Below are positions 7,622 through 63,857 of a stretch of 64,000 nt of DNA, piece by piece (positions within the stretch are counted from its first letter, which is position 1; every line of letters starts with the position of its first letter). The position numbers and the translations under genes were made by a program. The notes under the pieces were generated by a model. The model was not told the origin of the DNA, ran no database searches, and was given only the letters and a program-made list of their open reading frames with translations. The stretch is from Pyronema omphalodes. Its lineage: Eukaryota > Ascomycota > Pezizomycetes > Pezizales > Pyronemataceae. The stretch covers positions 224,179 to 288,178 of the forward strand of contig JAJJXM010000072.1 of NCBI GenBank assembly GCA_024516155.1, written 5' to 3'.

Positions 7622-8151
7622 TGTCATGGCACACGGCTGACGAGCCGTTGTGTTGCGTCATCATGTTGTCGTGGTTGTTGATTGACATCGTGCCGTTGTC
7701 TTGCCGTGTTGTGTTGCCGTTGTGTTGATCGTGTAGTTGTGTGTGCCGTGCCATGTTGACTGAGAGACTGATTGATGATGGATGACGTACCACGAGCTGG
7801 AGAGCTGTGGCGTCGCAGTTGAATCGATGGAGAACGGAAGCTCATGTAGCGATGATTGTATGACGGCCCAGCAAGAGTGCTGGCCGCCCCTTTGTACATA
7901 AGGAGGCTTGCCTCCCCGTTGTCGAGATTCTCCATCGAACGTCTTGTGTCTTCTCCTTGATCCTAATATAAGATTTCTTCTCCTAAGTCCTACGTCACTC
8001 TTGTCCTTGTCCCTGTCCCTGTTTAGTGTGCCGTCCGTCTGACGAGCACTTCGGTCCTTGCCCGGCCGTTCCCCGTTCCGGAACCTGCCTAGTCCCTCTT
8101 GCCGGTAGTGTTCAGTGTGTCCCTTGAACGTCCGTTCTCGTGTCCCTGACA
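7622..8151 (+). repeat. Ty3-A 3' LTR of copy A2
   Basis: 530 bp, TGTCATGGCACACGG to CCCTGACA, preceded by the polypurine tract CGGGGGGGTAC (7611-7621). It is very similar to the LTR at 2961-3492. The next base starts Ty3-E sequence on the other strand. Confidence 0.9.
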
Positions 8152-53854: not shown

Positions 53855-54441
53855 TGTCACGAATCGCTAAGGATATGCTTCTGGGGGGAATTGTGACCAC
53901 AGCCGGGCTGTGGTTCATGGGCGTGACATTGGGGATGGCATATGTCACGGTTAGGGTTTAGGCGAGGAGGTGGAGCTAGGGTTAGGCGAGAGGGAGGAGT
54001 CAGGGTTTAGGCGAGGGACAAGGGGGTAAGTTCGGGATGGAACGAGGAGGGTTTCCTCTATGTGTGGAATACGGTTTTGTATTATGTTTTGGTTATGTTT
54101 TGTATCATGTTTTGGTTATGCTTTGTATCATGTTTTGCTTATGTTTTGTTTGCGATTTGTATATGTTTTAGTTAGGTTTGGAAGCCACGGTGGAATGAAG
54201 GGTGTCTCATGATGGATGGAATATCTGCGGGACAGATAAGTTGGGGAATCACATGAGCACAGGAACGAAGGTATATAAGGGGACATTTGTATTTCATTAG
54301 TTTAGTACGCAATCAATTTTCTATCTACACAATCCTATCTACACGCTGAAGTCCTATCATCCGACCCGTGAACACAAACCCAGCCTATTGCAACCGACTG
54401 CCCATCCCACCTACTTACCCATCCCGAATACTCACCCATTC
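53855..54441 (+). repeat. Ty3-D LTR, truncated at its 3' end
   Basis: TGTCACGAATCGC start, collinear with 62962 onward but diverged, cut at 54441 by a Ty3-A LTR. It keeps the TATATAAGG box and the ACGCAATCAA start signal. Its first 107 bases keep an open frame for the membrane tail of the Ty3-D third ORF, ending in TAG instead of TAA. Confidence 0.9.
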
Positions 54442-55251: not shown

Positions 55252-55912
55252 CACTAAACTTAAGGCTCAAGCTACTAAGTTTACTTATCAACACAAATAC
55301 GGAAGACCCTCTTCTATGGCAAGATGACACCAAAAGATCCTCCACGAAAGAACTACAAAGAAATACATTCAATCAACAATGTCGGCACGAAGAATCACTG
55401 CTCACGACGACGGACTTGATGCTCCTATGGGTGATACCGTCAGCATTACTCGCCCTCGCTCCTGGGAGGAAGTTACTTCTGTTGGAGCGCCTAGGGTCCA
55501 CCATGGCACTACCCTCCACTTGGGAGAAGTCCATGAATGGGTTATTCTCATGATGGAAAGAATGAATGCAAATGAGGAGGACATCAAGAGGTTGATTGAG
55601 GCAGTCGGATCTGGGGCTGCCATGAACGAGGAATTGCAGAGAGTCAAGGGGCTTTACCAGGAAATGGCCCAGGGTATGCAAAAGGCCTACGACACCTTGG
55701 CCAAGAAGGGAAACCTGGACCGAGAGGTCAACTTAGAGACTGTTACCCGCCTTGTTCAGGCCAGCAACGACTTTGCTGGACAAGTTTGGAGGACTATTGG
55801 CAATCTTGCCACAGACGCACAAGCGAAGGAGGCAGCTCAACAAGCAGCTGCAGATAGACTTAACCAGGGCATTCAGATGACAAATGCTATCCTTGAGGCC
55901 TTTGCCCAGACG

Positions 55913-56659
55913 TGTCACGAACCGCTAGGGATATGCTTCTGGGACGGATTGTAACCACAGCTGGGCTGTGGTTCGTGGGTGTGACGCTGGGGATGGCGTA
56001 CGTCACAGTTAGGGTTTAAGCGAAGAGGTGGAGCTAGGGCTAGGCGAGAAGAGTTAGGGTTAAGCGAGGGACAAGGGGGTAAGTGCGGGGTGGAACGAGG
56101 AGGGTTTCCTCGAGGTTTGGAATATGTTTTGCTTATGTTTTGTATTGTGTTTTGCTTATGTTTTGTATTATGTTTTGGTTATGTTTTGTATTATGTTTTG
56201 GTTTATGTTTGTATTGTGTTTTAGTTAGGTTTTGGGAGTCACGGTGGAGCGAAGGGTGTCTCATGATGGATGGAATATCTGCGGGTCAGATAAGTTGGGA
56301 AATCACATGAGCACAGGGACAAAGGTATATAAGGGGACATTTGTATTTCATTAGTCTAGTACGCAATCAATTATCTATTTACACAATCCTATCTACACAC
56401 TGCAGTTCTATCATCTAAACCGTGACCGCAAACCCAGCCCATCCCAACATACTTACCCATCCCGAATACCCACCTATCCCCCCACCCAGATCCCCATCCG
56501 ACGATTCTATCAGAGGCAACGCTGCAGGGACATCCTGTGTACAAGGTAAGTACTGCCTGAGCCCGTGACTAACTCACCTAGAAGTCCAGAGCCGAACCCG
56601 ATTGCATAGCAATCCGACGGTTGTATCGCCTGTCGGCCGTGTGTAGCCGGATTTTGACA
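55913..56659 (+). repeat. Ty3-D 5' LTR
   Basis: 747 bp, TGTCACGAACCGC to GGATTTTGACA. U3 has several TTAGGG-like motifs directly after the ORF3-tail frame, then ATGTTTTGTATT-type tandem repeats. TATATAAGG is at 56326 and ACGCAATCAA at 56361-56370. Confidence 0.95.
56326..56370 (+). promoter_or_regulatory. Ty3-D core promoter: TATA box and predicted transcript start
   Basis: TATATAAGG at 56326-56334 lies 35 bases upstream of ACGCAATCAA (56361-56370), the bases complementary to the primer site. If that motif is the RNA 5' end, R-U5 is 299 bases. The same pair is at 63375 and 63410 in the 3' LTR. Confidence 0.65.
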
Positions 56660-56660
56660 T

Positions 56661-56670
56661 TTGATTGCGT
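56661..56670 (+). promoter_or_regulatory. Self-complementary primer-binding site of Ty3-D
   Basis: TTGATTGCGT, one base after the LTR, is the perfect 10-nt complement of ACGCAATCAA at 56361-56370. Confidence 0.7.
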
Positions 56671-56752
56671 CCTCCGAACGACACCCGATACAACTAAGGA
56701 AGCACGAAGGGCTTCAACCACAACTAAGAAAAAATAAGAAACAACCAATACC

Positions 56753-57835
56753 GTGGATCCGTTCCGATTGCAGGAGCTGAGCGAGGTTATCGAAAGGAAA
56801 GCCACCGGTCCAGCGAGCCCAGTAACCCCCGAACACCGATCCCGCCCACAGACTCCGGATTCACCGGGACCAGCACAGATTCCCGAGGACATAGCCTCCA
56901 TAATGGCCTCTCAACAGGGAACGAGCGGTATGACGCCACCCTCGGTCGTGATGACCCATGAGCAGCTTCAACAACTGTTCCAACAACTCACCTATCGACC
57001 CTCTCCGACCAGTAATCCCAAGGTCGAGGATCCCGAACTCTATCACGGCGAGAGGACGAAGCTTCGGGCTTTCCTAACTCAGTGCGAGCTGAAGTTCAAC
57101 TGTGAACCGAACAGGTTCGACAGTGATATTAAAAAGGTTAATTACGCCAGTTCGCGGTGCCGGGGAAATGCGTGGTCATGGATTGAACCCTCCATCGAGA
57201 GGGGGAGGAGCACGTACACCACCTGGGAGGCATTCAAGACTGCCGTCTCGAGAGCATTTGGAGAGGCGGATTCAAGGGAAGTAGCGAGGAGGAAATTCAA
57301 AAATGTCCGTCAGGGAAATCGGTCCGCCGCAGCGTATTGGGCCGAGTTCCAGAGAATCATCGCGGATCTGCGTTACAACGACGAAATCTACATTGATCAG
57401 TTCAGGGATGGACTTCATGTGGACGTACAAAGGCAACTCGCCATCCTCGAGACCGGTCCGACGAAGATAATCGATTTCGCAAACAAAGCAATTGCATTGG
57501 ACAACCGGCTGTTCAATTTCCGGACCCTGCGAAACCGATTCGAACCTCAGTACCAGAATTTCCATCCGAGGAACGGCCACCAGGGATCGACCTTCTCGGA
57601 ACCCGAGCCGATGGAACTGGATGCCACTCGGAGGGGCAGGCCTAGGGATAGGACCGAGGAAGAGAAACGACGAAAAAACAACGAGTGTTTCAACTGCGGG
57701 AAAACGGGCCACTATGCCGCCAAATGCCCCCACAAGAAACCAATGGGGGAACGACGAACGTACCGGGCGGCAGAAGCCAACATCGATGAGGAACAAGTCG
57801 AAGAAAGAGCGGGAAAAGAGGATCCCAAGGAGTAA
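56753..57835 (+). CDS. Ty3-D Gag
   Basis: 360 residues if started at GTG 56753, which sits in a good context (ATACCGTGG). A TAA lies 18 bases upstream in frame, and the first ATG is not reached until about 56902, so either the ATG mutated to GTG or a non-AUG start is used. The N-terminus is Pro-rich. The capsid-like domain runs about 90-240 (DPELYHGERTKLRAFL, AAYWAEFQRI). A basic linker follows, then the CCHC knuckle CFNCGKTGHYAAKC near 310. It ends AGKEDPKE-stop with the slippery site six codons upstream of the stop. Confidence 0.9.
   Translation: MDPFRLQELSEVIERKATGPASPVTPEHRSRPQTPDSPGPAQIPEDIASIMASQQGTSGMTPPSVVMTHEQLQQLFQQLTYRPSPTSNPKVEDPELYHGERTKLRAFLTQCELKFNCEPNRFDSDIKKVNYASSRCRGNAWSWIEPSIERGRSTYTTWEAFKTAVSRAFGEADSREVARRKFKNVRQGNRSAAAYWAEFQRIIADLRYNDEIYIDQFRDGLHVDVQRQLAILETGPTKIIDFANKAIALDNRLFNFRTLRNRFEPQYQNFHPRNGHQGSTFSEPEPMELDATRRGRPRDRTEEEKRRKNNECFNCGKTGHYAAKCPHKKPMGERRTYRAAEANIDEEQVEERAGKEDPKE
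57811..57817 (+). promoter_or_regulatory. Putative -1 frameshift site GGGAAAA (Ty3-D)
   Basis: G GGA AAA in gag phase. The -1 frame is open from here into pol. Confidence 0.72.
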
Positions 57836-60800
57836 AAAAACAAGGTGGACTTCTGGGGACGAAGAGTTTCGCCGAACCAGACAATCCGGAACCAGCCTAC
57901 ATGATATCGAGCGTAGGGCCATACCGGCGAGATGAAAAGATCATATTGAAAGTAGTAATAAAAGGAAAAGATAATCGAGAACACACCACGACGGCCATGG
58001 TGGACTGTGGAGCGACGGAGAACTTCATCGATAAGGAATATGCGGAAAAGGTGGGGATTCCGTTGAAAAAGAAGGACGTCCCACGAAGGGTGTTGGCAGT
58101 GGACGGACGAGAGATAGCTAGTGGGCCAGTCACCCACGAAGCTATGGTAAGATTACAGATCAACAACCATCAGGAGGATATTCGGCTGCATTGTATCACG
58201 ATTGGAAACTCACCTATCATTGTGGGACTTCCATGGCTCCGAACGCACAACCCCAGTATGGACTGGAACGAGGGAAGAGTTACGTTCGACTCGGCGCGTT
58301 GCGCTAAGAGGTGCCTAGGGACCTCGACCTCACCTCACGCGACCACGGTAACGGAAAACGACGCTATTCAGCAATATCGACTGGACACTGCGCAGGCCGC
58401 AGCCAGGGAAGAAAGAATATGCGAAGCAAGTTGGGAAGAAAGGAAGGAAACCTGGGGAAGTAGAACGAGGAAAAAGGAACAAGAAGCGGCGCCGTGGCGA
58501 AGAAGGATCGGAAAGGACCAGGAAAGAGAGGGGGAAGAGGAGCAACAAGGAAGGGTCCAAGTCGGGGCACAAGATGATCTCCTTCGAAGGGAGTTCGAGG
58601 AGGACATGGGAAAGGACGAAGAAGAAGAGGAGCTACAAGGAACCTGGGAAGACGGACAAGGTGATCCTCTTCAAATAAGGGTCGAGAAGGACCAGGAGGA
58701 GGAGGAACGAAAAGAGATCGAAGGTAGCGAACAAAACGATCCTTTTCGAATGCAGACTGAGGAAAAGGACGGGAAAAAGGAGGAATGGAAAGAGTCCCGG
58801 GATGCTGCACAAAACGATCCTTTTCGAATGCAGCCCGAAGGGAAAGAAGAAAAGGAGGAACGGAAACGGACCCGGGGAACTGCACAGAACGACCCTTTTC
58901 GAATGCAGCCCAAGGAAGGGGAAGAAATAAAGGAGGAACGGAAACGGATCCGGGATGGTGCAGAAAAGGATCCTTTTCGAATGCAGGCCGATGGAAACGA
59001 GGAAGATGGGGAAGATGAGGAGGAATCGGAAGGAAACTTTGACTGGATCGCTTACGCCGCTATGGGATCGCTACAGGATGAGCAGTATGGCTCCGTTCGG
59101 GAACCCGTATCCCAGGGTTCAGCCAAACAGCAGGAACCGACCCCGCGTTCGGCTGGTGACATTGTTCCGGTCGAATATCACGACTTCTTGCATGTATTCG
59201 ATAAGGAAGAAGTGTCGGGACGACCCCCACACCGCCATCACGACCATCGGATTCCGTTGGTGAAGGGGGGGGTTCCACCATTCGAACCCCTTCGAGCATT
59301 GGACGAGGGAAGGTTGAAGACGTTAAGAGAATACTTGGACACGAGCCTGGAGAAGGGACGGATACGCCGCTCGACATCACCGGCGGGGGCCCCGATTCAT
59401 TTTGTGAAGAAGAAGGATGGCACAGTAAGACTCTGTGTGGATTATCGGGGGCTTAACGAGATCACAGTAAAAGATAGAACACCTCTACCGTTGATAGGGG
59501 AAGCGTTGAATCGACTATCCAACGCAAAGATATACACGAAACTCGACGTACGGGACGCCTATCATAACCTGCGAATCGCAAAGGGGGACGAATGGAAGAC
59601 CGCTTTTCGGACGAAATATGGTCTTTTTGAATATTTGGTCATGCCATTCGGTCTTACCAACGCTCCAGCATCCTTTCAGAGGTGGATGAACGAGGTCCTC
59701 AGCGACTATCTAGACATCTTCTGTCTGGCATACCTCGACGACATCCTCATCTACTCGGATGATCTGCAGCAACACCAACAACATGTGAGAAAGGTTTTGG
59801 AACGGGTGGATAAGGTAAAGTTGAGGCTCAAGGCCTCAAAATGCGAGTTTCACACCACCGAGACGGAGTACTTGGGATATATCATCTCACCAACGGGGAT
59901 AAGGATGGATCCGGAGAAGGTAAGAGCAGTGGCAGAATGGAGGGAACCGACAAACGTAAAGGGAATCCAGAGTTTCATAGGATTCGCCAACTTCTATAGG
60001 AGGTTTATCCGGGATTTTAGCAAGATTACGGCGCCTCTTACAAAACTGACGAGGAAGGATGTAACATGGAAATGGGACGACGCGGCTAAATCAGCATTCG
60101 AACAGCTGAAACGGGCAATGATTTCTGAACCCATCCTACGACATTTTGACCCCACAAAACCCTTAACCCTGGAGACAGATGCGTCGGATTACGCCATCGG
60201 AGCAGTCTGCTCGCAGCCGGACGACCAAGGCATCCTACATCCCTTGGGATATTTCTTGCGCAAACTGAAGGACCCGGAATTAAATTACGATATACACGAT
60301 AAAGAACTCCTCGCCATAGTTGAAGGCCTAAATAAATGGGGTACCTACTGCAAGAATACTCGACACAAGATTACTATATTGACGGACCATAAAAATTTGG
60401 AATATTGGACTACAAAAAAAGACCTAGACCTACGGCAGGCAAGGTGGGCGGAAATGTTGGCGAATTACGACTTCGCAATAACGTATCGACCCGGCAAACT
60501 GGCGGGAAAGCCCGACATCCTATCGAGAGAATCAGGAGATTCTCCCTGGGAAGGGGAGCTGAAACACAGGCAGAACAGGGAACGAGTTCTTTTGCCGCCG
60601 CAGACCTTCTGGATCAACTCTGCCGAGGTCATGGAAATACAGGTCGACGAGGAATTGTTAAAAGAAATCCAACAGAAAACAAGGGAGGATCAGGAGATAC
60701 AGGAGATATTAAGGAAATTACGAACTGGGGAGAAGATAGACCGGAAGGTGGCATTGGGACTTTGCGAAGAACGAGAGGGGCTGTTGCTGTATGAGGGGTT

Positions 60801-62124
60801 GATATGGGTACCAGACGACCACGAGTTGCGGCTACGGCTCCTACATGACCACCATGATGCACTCGTTGCGGGACACCCAGGGCGGGCGAGGACCTTGGAG
60901 CTAATCAGTAGGAATTATTATTGGCCTCAGCAACGCCAATATGTCAACCGATACGTAGACCACTGCGATACCTGCAAGAGGATTAAGCCAGTTAGGCACG
61001 CTCCTTTCGGGCTCCTGAAGCCCTTACAGCCACCATCGAGGCCGTGGGATTCGGTGTCCATGGATTTTATCACTGGACTGCCGTCAAGAGGAGGAAACAA
61101 CGCCCTATGGGTAATTGTGGATCGGTTCACGAAGATGGCTCACTTCGTGGCCTGTGCGGATACGATGGGGCCGAAGGAACTGGCGGATGGATTCCTGAGG
61201 CATGTGGTCAGGGCCCACGGACTTCCTAACGATATCGTCTCCGACCGCGGGTCTCTATTCACCTCGACGTTTTGGAAGCGAGTGATGGGGGCAATGGGGA
61301 CGTCAAGGAAGCTCAGCACCGCATTCCACCCCGAGACCGACGGACAGACCGAACGCACGAACGCCACCCTCGAACAGTACCTGCGGGCGTACTGCAATTA
61401 CCAGCAGGACGACTGGGAAAAGCTACTCCCAATGGCGGAGTTTTGCTATAACAACACTCAATCCGAGACAACAAAGGTAACCCCCTTTTTCGCGAATTAT
61501 GGGTATCATCCGCGGTTCGCACCCAGCCTAGGAAAAATAGAAGGAGGATTCCCGGAGGTGGCGGAATACGTCTCAGCCCTCACCAACCTCCACCGGGAAC
61601 TACAGGCAGAAATCGGATATGCACAGGCTGCCCAGGCAGAACAGGCAAATCGGAAGAGACACCCGGATCCCGTACTCAGGGAGGGGGATAGGGTGTGGTT
61701 GCGGAGGAAAAACGTGAAGACAACTCGCCCATCCAGCAAGTTGGATTACAAGCTGATGGGACCATACACCATCCTTGAGCGAGTGGGGACAAGAGCGTAT
61801 AAATTGGATCTCCCCGCCAGTGTGAAAATACACCCCGTATTCCACATCTCATTGCTCGAGCTGGCTCAACCCACCCTTACACCAATCCCCGGGCACGTCC
61901 AACCTCCTCCCCCACCAATTGTTATTGAGGACGAAGAGGAATGGGAAGTGGAGGAGATAGTCGATTCCCGCTATCATCGAAACCGACTCCAGTATCGTGT
62001 ACGTTGGACGGAATTCCCTGATCCCGACCGAACTTGGTACCCATCGGAGAACTTCACGAATTCCCCCGACGCTATCCGACGATTTCACACCACCTACCCA
62101 AGAAAACCGGCCCCAAGGTTGTAA
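57814..62124 (+). CDS. Ty3-D Pol, intact (protease, acidic repeats, RT, RNase H, integrase, chromodomain)
   Basis: About 1436 codons in the -1 frame, TAA at 62122-62124. Protease DCGATENF near 58002-58025. A long acidic linker (about 58360-59050) holds six imperfect repeats of 25 or 26 residues marked by NDPFRMQ. RT YLDDILIYSDD near 59730-59760. RNase H TDASDYAIG near 60175-60200. HHCC finger (HPGR near 60875; HCDTC near 60962). Integrase MDF near 61060, SDRGSLF near 61240, ETDGQTER near 61333. Chromodomain about 61930-62090 (EEEWEVEEIVDS, YRVRW). All key residues are present. An ATG exists at 57901, but the frame is open upstream to the slippery site, so a Gag-Pol fusion is the likely product. 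Confidence 0.94.
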   Translation, partial: KRGSQGVKKQGGLLGTKSFAEPDNPEPAYMISSVGPYRRDEKIILKVVIKGKDNREHTTTAMVDCGATENFIDKEYAEKVGIPLKKKDVPRRVLAVDGREIASGPVTHEAMVRLQINNHQEDIRLHCITIGNSPIIVGLPWLRTHNPSMDWNEGRVTFDSARCAKRCLGTSTSPHATTVTENDAIQQYRLDTAQAAAREERICEASWEERKETWGSRTRKKEQEAAPWRRRIGKDQEREGEEEQQGRVQVGAQDDLLRREFEEDMGKDEEEEELQGTWEDGQGDPLQIRVEKDQEEEERKEIEGSEQNDPFRMQTEEKDGKKEEWKESRDAAQNDPFRMQPEGKEEKEERKRTRGTAQNDPFRMQPKEGEEIKEERKRIRDGAEKDPFRMQADGNEEDGEDEEESEGNFDWIAYAAMGSLQDEQYGSVREPVSQGSAKQQEPTPRSAGDIVPVEYHDFLHVFDKEEVSGRPPHRHHDHRIPLVKGGVPPFEPLRALDEGRLKTLREYLDTSLEKGRIRRSTSPAGAPIHFVKKKDGTVRLCVDYRGLNEITVKDRTPLPLIGEALNRLSNAKIYTKLDVRDAYHNLRIAKGDEWKTAFRTKYGLFEYLVMPFGLTNAPASFQRWMNEVLSDYLDIFCLAYLDDILIYSDDLQQHQQHVRKVLERVDKVKLRLKASKCEFHTTETEYLGYIISPTGIRMDPEKVRAVAEWREPTNVKGIQSFIGFANFYRRFIRDFSKITAPLTKLTRKDVTWKWDDAAKSAFEQLKRAMISEPILRHFDPTKPLTLETDASDYAIGAVCSQPDDQGILHPLGYFLRKLKDPELNYDIHDKELLAIVEGLNKWGTYCKNTRHKITILTDHKNLEYWTTKKDLDLRQARWAEMLANYDFAITYRPGKLAGKPDILSRESGDSPWEGELKHRQNRERVLLPPQTFWINSAEVMEIQVDEELLKEIQQKTREDQEIQEILRKLRTGEKIDRKVALGLCEEREGLLLYEGLIWVPDDHELRLRLLHDHHDALVAGHPGRARTLELISRNYYWPQQRQYVNRYVDHCDTCKRIKPVRHAPFGLLKPLQPPSRPWDSVSMDFITGLPSRGGNNALWVIVDRFTKMAHFVACADTMGPKELADGFLRHVVRAHGLPNDIVSDRGSLFTSTFWKRVMGAMGTSRKLSTAFHPETDGQTERTNATLEQYLRAYCNYQQDDWEKLLPMAEFCYNNTQSETTKVTPFFANYGYHPRFAPSLGKIEGGFPEVAEYVSALTNLHRELQAEIGYAQAAQAEQANRKRHPDPVLREGDRVWLRRKNVKTTRPSSKLDYKLMGPYTILERVGTRAYKLDLPASVKIHPVFHISLLELAQPTLTPIPGHVQPPPPPIVIEDEEEWEVEEIVDSRYHRNRLQYRVRWTEFPDPDRTWYPSENFTNSPDAIRRFHTTYPRKPAPRL
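58567..59036 (+). repeat. Minisatellite in Ty3-D pol encoding acidic repeats
   Basis: Six units beginning with variants of GCACAAAACGATCCTTTTCG at about 58567, 58654, 58729, 58807, 58882 and 58960, mostly 75 or 78 bases apart. They encode NDPFRMQ followed by 15-20 Glu/Lys/Arg-rich residues. All length changes keep the frame. Confidence 0.85.
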
Positions 62125-62129
62125 AAACC

Positions 62130-63068
62130 ATGGCTAGCCCCATAAAACCCGAGAACGACCAACAATCCGGCGGCTGGTACCGCCAGGATGCCCCATCACC
62201 GACAACCACGTATCCCCCACACGATGTCCAACACTGGACCTTTTGTTACGACGACTACTGCGCCACACATCGACAATCGAAAGAAAACTACAACTATTTT
62301 CCAACCGCTGGGCGGAAAGGAACCAACGAATACAACTGCGGACGGACACACGATCCCGAGTTAGAGGCTGTGATCAGGAGGAAACATCTGGACGTTCGGA
62401 AGGCCTGTCGGGCCTGGCAGCGAGGGAAGAGGGTCTGCTACGACTGTGGGTTTCTGGTTAACATGGACGGCCATGAAGCCAGATGCGGCGCCACAGGGCC
62501 TGCCCGCTCCACGACAACTCCCGCTCCGACACCGGATGAACCGACCCCCGTCCCGGAGAAAGACCAGCAGCACCCCAACGGGGAACAGCCACCAACAGCA
62601 CCCGAGCTGGCCTCGGAAACCTCGAGCGAGACTTTGATGGAGAAGAGGTACGTCCCTGTCTACCTCATGTCTCCGAACAGGGACCCCGAACGACTCGCAA
62701 TAAACCTCTCCTTCTACGGACCACCCACTGGAAAGGAAGAGGTGCCACCGCCGACCCACACCCCACCGCCATTCGAGGGGTCCTCGTTGCCGGAGCACTC
62801 CAGCACTGGTTTCGGAGGAGACTCTGCCCGCCTCCAACGACTATCCGGCAGATGCCGCCGCCAGAACCGCAATCGCCGTCGGCAGCGACAACCCCGACCT
62901 CGTCCCCATGGGGAACCTCAGACAAGCCTCGTCGGAGTCTCGGCCTGGAGGGGGGAGCTACTGTCACGAACCGCTAGGGATATGCTTCTGGGAGGGATTG
63001 CAACCACAGCTGGGCTGTGGTTCGTGGGTGTGACGCTGGGGATGGCGTACGTCACAGTTAGGGTTTAA
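62130..63068 (+). CDS. Ty3-D ORF3, zinc-finger protein with LTR-encoded membrane tail
   Basis: 312 residues, ATG at 62130 in a strong context (AAACCATGG), five bases after the pol stop. An upstream in-frame extension into pol has no ATG. The N-terminal third has Cys/His-rich sequence: C39, C44 and H47, C70, then C103-x2-C106-x8-H115-x3-C119. The middle is Pro/Thr/Glu-rich, followed by an Arg/Gln-rich stretch (about 255-275). A 25-residue hydrophobic segment (about 285-309) precedes a short VRV end. From residue 279 on the protein is encoded by the 3' LTR (62962-63068), and the codons before it span the polypurine tract. Position and tail recall env-type third ORFs, but there is no signal peptide or furin-like site and I see no homology, so a tail-anchored membrane protein is the safer description. 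The LTR-encoded part is conserved in the diverged LTR at 53855. Confidence 0.82.
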   Translation: MASPIKPENDQQSGGWYRQDAPSPTTTYPPHDVQHWTFCYDDYCATHRQSKENYNYFPTAGRKGTNEYNCGRTHDPELEAVIRRKHLDVRKACRAWQRGKRVCYDCGFLVNMDGHEARCGATGPARSTTTPAPTPDEPTPVPEKDQQHPNGEQPPTAPELASETSSETLMEKRYVPVYLMSPNRDPERLAINLSFYGPPTGKEEVPPPTHTPPPFEGSSLPEHSSTGFGGDSARLQRLSGRCRRQNRNRRRQRQPRPRPHGEPQTSLVGVSAWRGELLSRTARDMLLGGIATTAGLWFVGVTLGMAYVTVRV

Positions 63069-63708
63069 GCGAAGAGGTGGAGCTAGGGCTAGGCGAGAAG
63101 AGTTAGGGTTAAGCGAGGGAAAAGGGGGTAAGTGCGGGGTGGAACGAGGAGGGTTTCCTCGAGGTTTGGAATATGTTTTGCTTATGTTTTGTATTGTGTT
63201 TTGCTTATGTTTTGTATTATGTTTTGGTTATGTTTTGTATTATGTTTTGGTTTATGTTTGTATTGTGTTTTAGTTAGGTTTTGGGAGTCACGGTGGAGCG
63301 AAGGGTGTCTCATGATGGATGGAATATCTGCGGGTCAGATAAGTTGGGAAATCACATGAGCACAGGGACAAAGGTATATAAGGGGACATTTGTATTTCAT
63401 TAGTCTAGTACGCAATCAATTATCTATTTACACAATCCTATCTACACACTGCAGTTCTATCATCTAAACCGTGACCGCAAACCCAGCCCATCCCAACATA
63501 CTTACCCATCCCGAATACCCACCTATCCCCCTACCCAGATCCCCATCCGACGATTCTATCAGAGGCAACGCTGCAGGGACATCCTGTGTACAAGGTAAGT
63601 ACTGCCTGAGCCCGTGACTAACTCACCTAGAAGTCCAGAGCCGAACACGATTGCATAGCAATCCGATGGTTGTATCGCCTGTCGGCCGTGTGTAGCCGGA
63701 TTTTGACA
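62962..63708 (+). repeat. Ty3-D 3' LTR
   Basis: 747 bp, preceded by the polypurine tract GGAGGGGGGAGCTAC (62947-62961). It differs from the 5' LTR by six substitutions and no indel. Its first 107 bases are the end of ORF3. The target duplication AGACG follows. Confidence 0.95.
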
Positions 63709-63857
63709 AGACGCAACTGAAAAGCAACAAAGAAATTGAAGAATGGGCATTTGAGAAGAGCACACAGGATGCCATTAGAAAACAGGATGATGAGCAAAGG
63801 GATGGGAGGATTGCAGCTCTTTCCAGAGCTGAAGAGGTGCACCAGCAACGTCTGCTG

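Follow-up and report, generated by a model that had tools for sequence, protein, structure and literature searches.

The window analysed here, a 64,000-nt stretch of Pyronema omphalodes DNA, is a contig end that terminates in TTAGGG telomere repeats. It contains Ty3-D, a Ty3/gypsy chromovirus whose two LTRs are 99.2% identical and differ by six substitutions (Table 1). Ty3-D is a young insertion. Its pol frame carries the Pfam domains in the order PR-RT-RH-IN, followed by a C-terminal chromodomain (PF00385, 7.3e-11), as is typical of chromoviruses. The LTRs have the TG..CA ends of Metaviridae, and matching 5-bp target-site duplications were found in 16 of the 18 Ty3-D elements with both LTRs; at 3 of 21 Ty3-D loci, a second full LTR was absent from the examined stretch. 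Downstream of gag and pol lies a third frame, ORF3, described in the initial annotation as an intact 312-codon ORF between pol and the 3' LTR. We find it open from its ATG to the stop.

Several minor features accompany this layout. The element sits inside another ORF (55379-55954), which runs on into the 5' LTR, and the N-terminal part of pol holds four tandem repeats of 75-78 nt (58684-58992). In two other Ty3-D copies, L035 and L048, gag and pol form one open frame (1795 and 1787 codons) rather than two. By eye, no intron-like LTR block was seen in a second family (family B, below); the Ty3-D LTR has one at 56546-56581 (GTAAGT ... CTAAC ... CTAG) with a possible splice donor.

Table 1. Features of Ty3-D and of the related diverged LTR in the window
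Feature	Position	Strand	Description
Target-site duplication AGACG	left 55908-55912, right 63709-63713	+	5 bp
5' LTR of Ty3-D	55913-56659	+	747 bp, TGTCA...TGACA
10-nt block ACGCAATCAA	56361-56370	+	downstream of TATA-like box; complements primer-site region
Primer-site region TTTGATTGCGTCC	56660-56672	+	identical in family B
gag frame	56738-57835	+	capsid domain, CCHC zinc knuckle
pol frame	57790-62124	+	protease, RT, RNase H, integrase, chromodomain
GGGAAAA heptamer	57811-57817	+	-1 frameshift phase, gag/pol overlap; also in family B
ORF3	62130-63068	+	312 aa; ATG 5 nt past pol stop, TAAAAACCATGG
WCCH-type motif W36-C39-C44-H47 of ORF3	62235-62270	+	
CxxC-x8-HxxxC core of ORF3, residues 103-119	62436-62486	+	
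Polypurine tract, read through by ORF3	about 62947-62957	+	
3' LTR of Ty3-D	62962-63708	+	747 bp
LTR-encoded C-terminal ORF3 tail incl. stop codon	62962-63068	+	
Predicted membrane helix of ORF3, residues 285-303	62982-63038	+	
Homologous open tail in diverged LTR	53855-53961	+	86.5% identity in tail

The tail of ORF3 lies in the LTR

The initial annotation had placed the last 34 codons of ORF3 in the LTR and the codons before them across the polypurine tract. This arrangement is borne out: 104 coding nucleotides and the stop codon lie past 62962, the stop ends 107 nt into the 3' LTR, and the LTR supplies the last 34-35 residues. A diverged LTR at 53855, 83% identical to that of Ty3-D by BLAST over 599 columns, had been said to keep this tail open through mostly silent changes and without indels. 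Over 34 codons, 4 of the changes between the two tails are indeed nonsynonymous and 10 synonymous (dN/dS 0.117, Fisher p 2.8e-4), and the first indel between the LTRs occurs at LTR position 139, about 30 nt past the stop. In the other two frames of the 53855 tail only 2.5-3 of the 14 changes are silent, and each is interrupted by stops at two codon positions. As a check for chance, overlapping 102-nt windows with at least six differences were taken from both strands of the remaining alignment with the 53855 LTR. A ratio as low was found in 10 of these 178 windows, none of the 10 being open. Three further old copies give tail dN/dS values of 0.13-0.17, although they are mutually non-independent and two lack a stop at that place; the old copy L055, with its frame broken near the end, was excluded. 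Against constraint on the tail, private LTR variants reach 0.20 per site there, roughly double the 0.10 outside it, and 1 of 20 distinct LTR indels falls within the first 107 nt.

Selection among Ty3-D copies

A search of the 60.8 Mb genome (232 contigs) with ORF3 returned at least 183 matches. Among the matches listed, 40 are near-complete Ty3-D copies of ORF3, including the analysed one, with identities of 82-100%; internal stops occur in 7 of them, and 33 are free of stops. At 19 of 21 Ty3-D loci ORF3 is open over 348 codons from stop to stop, in a set that was chosen by ORF3 score and therefore over-represents intact frames. Half of the 18 elements with both LTRs (9/18) show at most one LTR substitution, indicating that these insertions are recent.

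The best 30 of the 40 near-complete copies align without gaps, and 28 of these 30 have no internal stop, broken copies being under-represented by this choice. We compared nonsynonymous (N) and synonymous (S) variants shared by at least two copies with those private to one copy, scoring stops as N. In the zinc region (residues 30-125), shared variants number 3N/15S against 23N/8S for private ones (p=1.2e-4). The tail (residues 279-312) gives 0N/4S shared and 5N/8S private, in small counts, and the linker (residues 126-262) gives 20N/16S and 32N/19S. Since shared variants have probably been replicated, 3N/15S and 0N/4S are the sign expected of purifying selection in the zinc region and the tail, while the linker appears loosely constrained.

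A second family with the same layout

ORF3 of a second family, family B, occurs in at least 54 places in the genome at 41-45% identity to that of Ty3-D, and a search with P0016 lists further places of this type. The layout of family B is that of one fully read element, L051, which has LTRs of 794 bp (99.6% identical) and, besides gag and pol, an ORF3 of 349 aa. Here the ATG of ORF3 overlaps the pol stop (TAATGG), and the frame ends 104 nt inside the LTR. Amino-acid identity between the families is 74% in gag, 69% in pol, 42% in ORF3 and 45% in the LTR tail. The tails align ungapped with 15 of 33 residues identical, whereas 20,000 shuffles gave a mean of 2.9 and a maximum of 11; silent sites are near saturation (pS 0.72 vs pN 0.38, p=0.0036). 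When the LTRs themselves were compared by BLAST, the one clear match covered 38 columns that surround the self-priming site. Tail variants within family B (3N/2S, and 4N/1S in a copy with an interrupted tail) are too few to show constraint. The element L051 is flanked by a 22-bp direct repeat (90-111 and 7749-7770), longer than the usual target duplication, and its pol holds a 63-nt repeat unlike the repeats in Ty3-D pol.

These comparisons bear on whether the tail is kept only for cis-acting signals in U3, such as integrase ends or an enhancer, with its frame open by chance. Synonymous sites just upstream, in codons 263-277 over the polypurine tract, are conserved between the families (pS 0.16), which favours this explanation. 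However, third positions account for 9 of the 14 changes that separate the tail from the 53855 LTR, the tail is not better conserved as DNA in that comparison (identity 0.865) than the remaining LTR (0.883), and the residues persist between families despite the near-saturation of silent sites. We regard this explanation as very improbable. The claim of selection on the protein, including its LTR-coded part, is backed by many copies and by the second family. Judged from the sequences, ORF3 is a real third gene under selection, and part of the LTR is protein-coding.

Relatives of ORF3 and its association with pol

Protein searches for relatives of ORF3 returned 12, 37 and 33 matches, the latter two after scoring only the best 7996 and 7997 candidates, respectively. 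Pyronema domesticum is the only named organism among the relatives listed; the others are JGI proteins. The hydrophobic tail is kept in all 18 relatives that reach the C-terminus, 17 of them aligned and one (P0038) inspected by eye. Of the 37 aligned relatives, 20 stop short of the tail, being fragments or having differing ends (P0020, P0027). Outside this alignment stand P0012, P0037, whose C-terminal end differs, and P0038-P0043. In the JGI proteins P0042 and P0043 the tail is joined, by eye, to unrelated upstream sequence, and the likeness begins at the serine after the first two LTR bases of family B. The simplest reading of a junction at the LTR start is that an LTR inserted in or beside another frame, the tail being LTR-coded there too.

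The association of ORF3 with pol was assessed at 144 usable pol 3' ends among the matches listed, after dropping 4 of 148 that did not reach the pol C-terminus. All 46 Ty3-D-like pol ends, with at least 83% identity, are followed by an ORF3 protein match; a lack of ORF3 in other family members had been named as a refuting outcome. Among the matches listed, such a protein match also follows 62 of 68 pol ends at 70-82% identity, which are second-family-like, but only 3 of 30 at 60-69%. Of the latter three, C210 (pol 62%) contains a segment that matches P0003 at 42% identity. Six further pol ends, three in each of these identity classes, are followed about 114 nt downstream by a match to the WCCH motif only. 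After the remaining 24 of the 30 pol ends at 60-69% identity we found no recognisable ORF3 among the matches listed; there it may be absent or diverged past recognition.

Features of the ORF3 protein

The CxxC-x8-HxxxC core named in the initial annotation keeps its four ligands in 30-33 of 31-34 aligned proteins. The conserved positions of ORF3 are W36, C39, C44, H47, C70, H74, C93, C103, C106, H115 and C119, each retained in 15-33 of 18-34 rows of the alignment. The hydrophobic C-terminal segment was likewise recovered, the 19-residue Kyte-Doolittle window reaching 1.67 at residue 285, with 0.11 as the next best value elsewhere. In all 17 aligned sequences that reach the C-terminus, the most hydrophobic 19-aa window ends 8-9 residues before it, and the hydrophobicity of the tail is moderate (1.47-2.33). 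The segment is non-amphipathic in all five sequences checked. Its unweighted Hessa-scale sum is above 0 in 12 of 17, which, like the moderate hydrophobicity, speaks against a membrane anchor. The hallmarks of a tail anchor, a single helix at most about 30 residues from the C-terminus and no hydrophobic N-terminus, were found in 17 of 17, out of the 37 aligned.

The AlphaFold model of the family B ORF3, built from 37 sequences, has a mean pLDDT of 58.9 and is confident only at residues ~81-129, where two helices precede a beta-beta-alpha core, and 318-348, the C-terminal helix. The Ty3-D model is weaker (mean pLDDT 48.6), with the C-terminal helix again predicted; block means of pLDDT in this helix are 76-96. 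A tail-anchored zinc-binding protein fits both the helical tail and the set of conserved Cys and His residues, and from these we infer that the protein would bind zinc and insert into a membrane.

The residues W36, C39, C44 and H47 resemble the WCCH motif (PF03716), which Pfam lists in retrotransposons and geminiviruses. Single ORF3 proteins score 12.8 and, for family B, 17.5 bits against the curated cut-off of 22.4. In a genome search the scores are about 22 bits, and 89 of 105 matches were marked as exceeding the cut-off; 6 did so individually, the others only jointly with frame neighbours. ORF3 might counter host genome defence, such as RNA silencing or methylation, through this motif, membrane placement being secondary. 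The combination of a fast-changing linker, a conserved Cys/His part and a WCCH-type motif would suit such a role, but the match is borderline and the conservation of the tail would be left unexplained. We consider this reading unlikely.

The position of ORF3 after pol, where env would stand, and its C-terminal hydrophobic helix invite comparison with envelope proteins, and the initial annotation had proposed envelope-like transfer. Hydropathy reveals no hydrophobic N-terminus that could act as a signal peptide, ORF3 matches no Env family in Pfam, and a PDB sequence search gave 0 matches at E<=1. Foldseek against PDB returned no match at E<=0.001 for either ORF3 model, both of low confidence, and the weak family B model had none at that threshold in a viral library; with such models, a fold could be overlooked. 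A scan of viral contigs with ORF3 gave seven pattern matches, none related. The conserved part of ORF3 is, moreover, its Cys/His region. It is therefore improbable in our view that ORF3 is an envelope-like or fusogenic protein serving the passage of particles from cell to cell or between hyphae, and of all parts of the finding the envelope idea has the least support. The overall interpretation stands as to protein-level selection, tail included, and finds no specific support as to its envelope-like part; roles in particle release and membrane anchoring are possible. In its features ORF3 resembles a membrane-tethered accessory protein more than it does a retroviral envelope.

Expression of ORF3 and a proposed role

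In L051 the GGGAAAA heptamer of the gag/pol overlap lies at 2038-2044, in -1 frameshift phase. We set aside a -1 frameshift as the route from pol into ORF3, the family B frames overlapping by only ~18 nt with no heptamer there by eye. The start of ORF3 5 nt past the pol stop, or overlapping it, suggests termination-reinitiation. Stop-restart translation has precedents in SART1 and in victoriviruses.

The reading that we consider probable is a tail-anchored zinc-binding accessory protein, translated by stop-restart after pol from a third gene that is under selection and whose tail the LTR encodes. The sequence itself shows that ORF3 stands directly after pol and that its coding stretch takes in the polypurine tract and some 104 nt at the start of the LTR. 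Under the proposal, low-level translation from genomic RNA would come from termination-reinitiation at the pol stop, at TAATG in family B and, in Ty3-D, across a gap of 5 nt to an ATG in good context. A zinc-binding N-terminal part would then remain in the cytosol, held on a host membrane by the C-terminal tail anchor. More tentatively, and with clearly less than even confidence, we suggest, as the most likely role, that the protein is an accessory tether bringing element RNA, Gag particles or the pre-integration complex to an ER or nuclear-envelope membrane of the same cell, and not an entry glycoprotein.

Comparison with known systems

In plant CRM group A chromoviruses, coding sequence is described as running into the 3' LTR (PMC3059260). 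In the available part of that account, the LTR-coded portion is the end of the polyprotein with its CR motif, whereas in Ty3-D it belongs to a third ORF, distinct from pol, whose product has a hydrophobic helix; the gag-pol of Ty3-D itself stays outside the 3' LTR, the pol stop preceding ORF3. The CR motif is termed there a putative targeting domain (PMC3059260), and ORF3 could by analogy be an integration or nuclear-targeting factor, for example one docking at the nuclear periphery and subtelomeres. The analysed copy adjoins telomere repeats, and 8 of 23 Ty3-D copies lie within 25 kb of a contig end against 2.2 expected (contigs over 250 kb), a count confounded by assembly breaks at repeats, as contig ends collect repeats for assembly reasons. 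With a chromodomain already present in pol, we think a targeting factor unlikely.

A review of plant elements treats additional ORFs after pol and gives the antisense ORF of Boty as a fungal case (PMC7264820). By their description they are, like ORF3, extra genes at the env position in most copies of a family; the plant sense ORFs are termed env-like, that of Boty is antisense, and the passages concerned describe none as LTR-coded (PMC7264820). Some ORF3s of bdelloid rotifer LTR-retrotransposons resemble that of Ty3-D, again by description only, in being short, having transmembrane segments and cysteines and occupying the env position (PMC5408684). Their host is an animal, and neither a zinc core nor an LTR-coded tail is described in the part of that account available (PMC5408684). 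The figure legend of a fungal survey mentions LTR elements with an additional ORF of unknown function, which by description share with Ty3-D a fungal host and an extra ORF (PMC2864245). None of the open-licence papers listed, most of them covered at the level of titles and the starts of abstracts, was recognisable as describing the ORF3 gene. Retroviral nef and MMTV sag are accessory genes running into or within U3 of the 3' LTR; unlike ORF3, these unrelated proteins belong to vertebrate retroviruses with env. Additional ORFs and coding into the LTR are known already; a third gene with an LTR-coded tail is a new form of these.

ORF3 is a well-supported sense-strand third gene of fungal Ty3 elements: two families of a single genome carry it, and it recurs among proteins from other sources, including Pyronema. 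An LTR stretch can be under protein-level selection on top of cis constraint. For such families, dating, LTR trees and the comparison of solo LTRs, like other methods in which LTRs count as non-coding, therefore call for caution. Should the membrane anchor prove real, a fungus would offer a way to test how retrotransposons become membrane-associated. We give little credence to the further idea that a membrane-active third protein with an LTR-written anchor evolved independently in fungal chromoviruses, so that particles join membranes and pass between hyphae; if true, it would be a step towards a retrovirus inside fungi.

Priming signals

The block ACGCAATCAA lies at position 449 of the Ty3-D LTR, and its L051 counterpart at LTR position 589; in both families it follows a TATA-like box. 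All 18 Ty3-D 5' LTRs tested carry the 10-nt primer-complementary block, as does the family B element; when primer regions were shuffled, a 10-nt complement arose in 11 of 2000. In the self-priming Tf1/sushi elements, the primer site complements a block near the transcript start. Tf1 is not known to have an ORF3. Ty3-D and family B carry what appears to be a self-priming signature of this type. If the block marks the RNA start, as it would in Tf1-type self-priming, U3 contains the tail-coding stretch, which the RNA then carries only at its 3' end.
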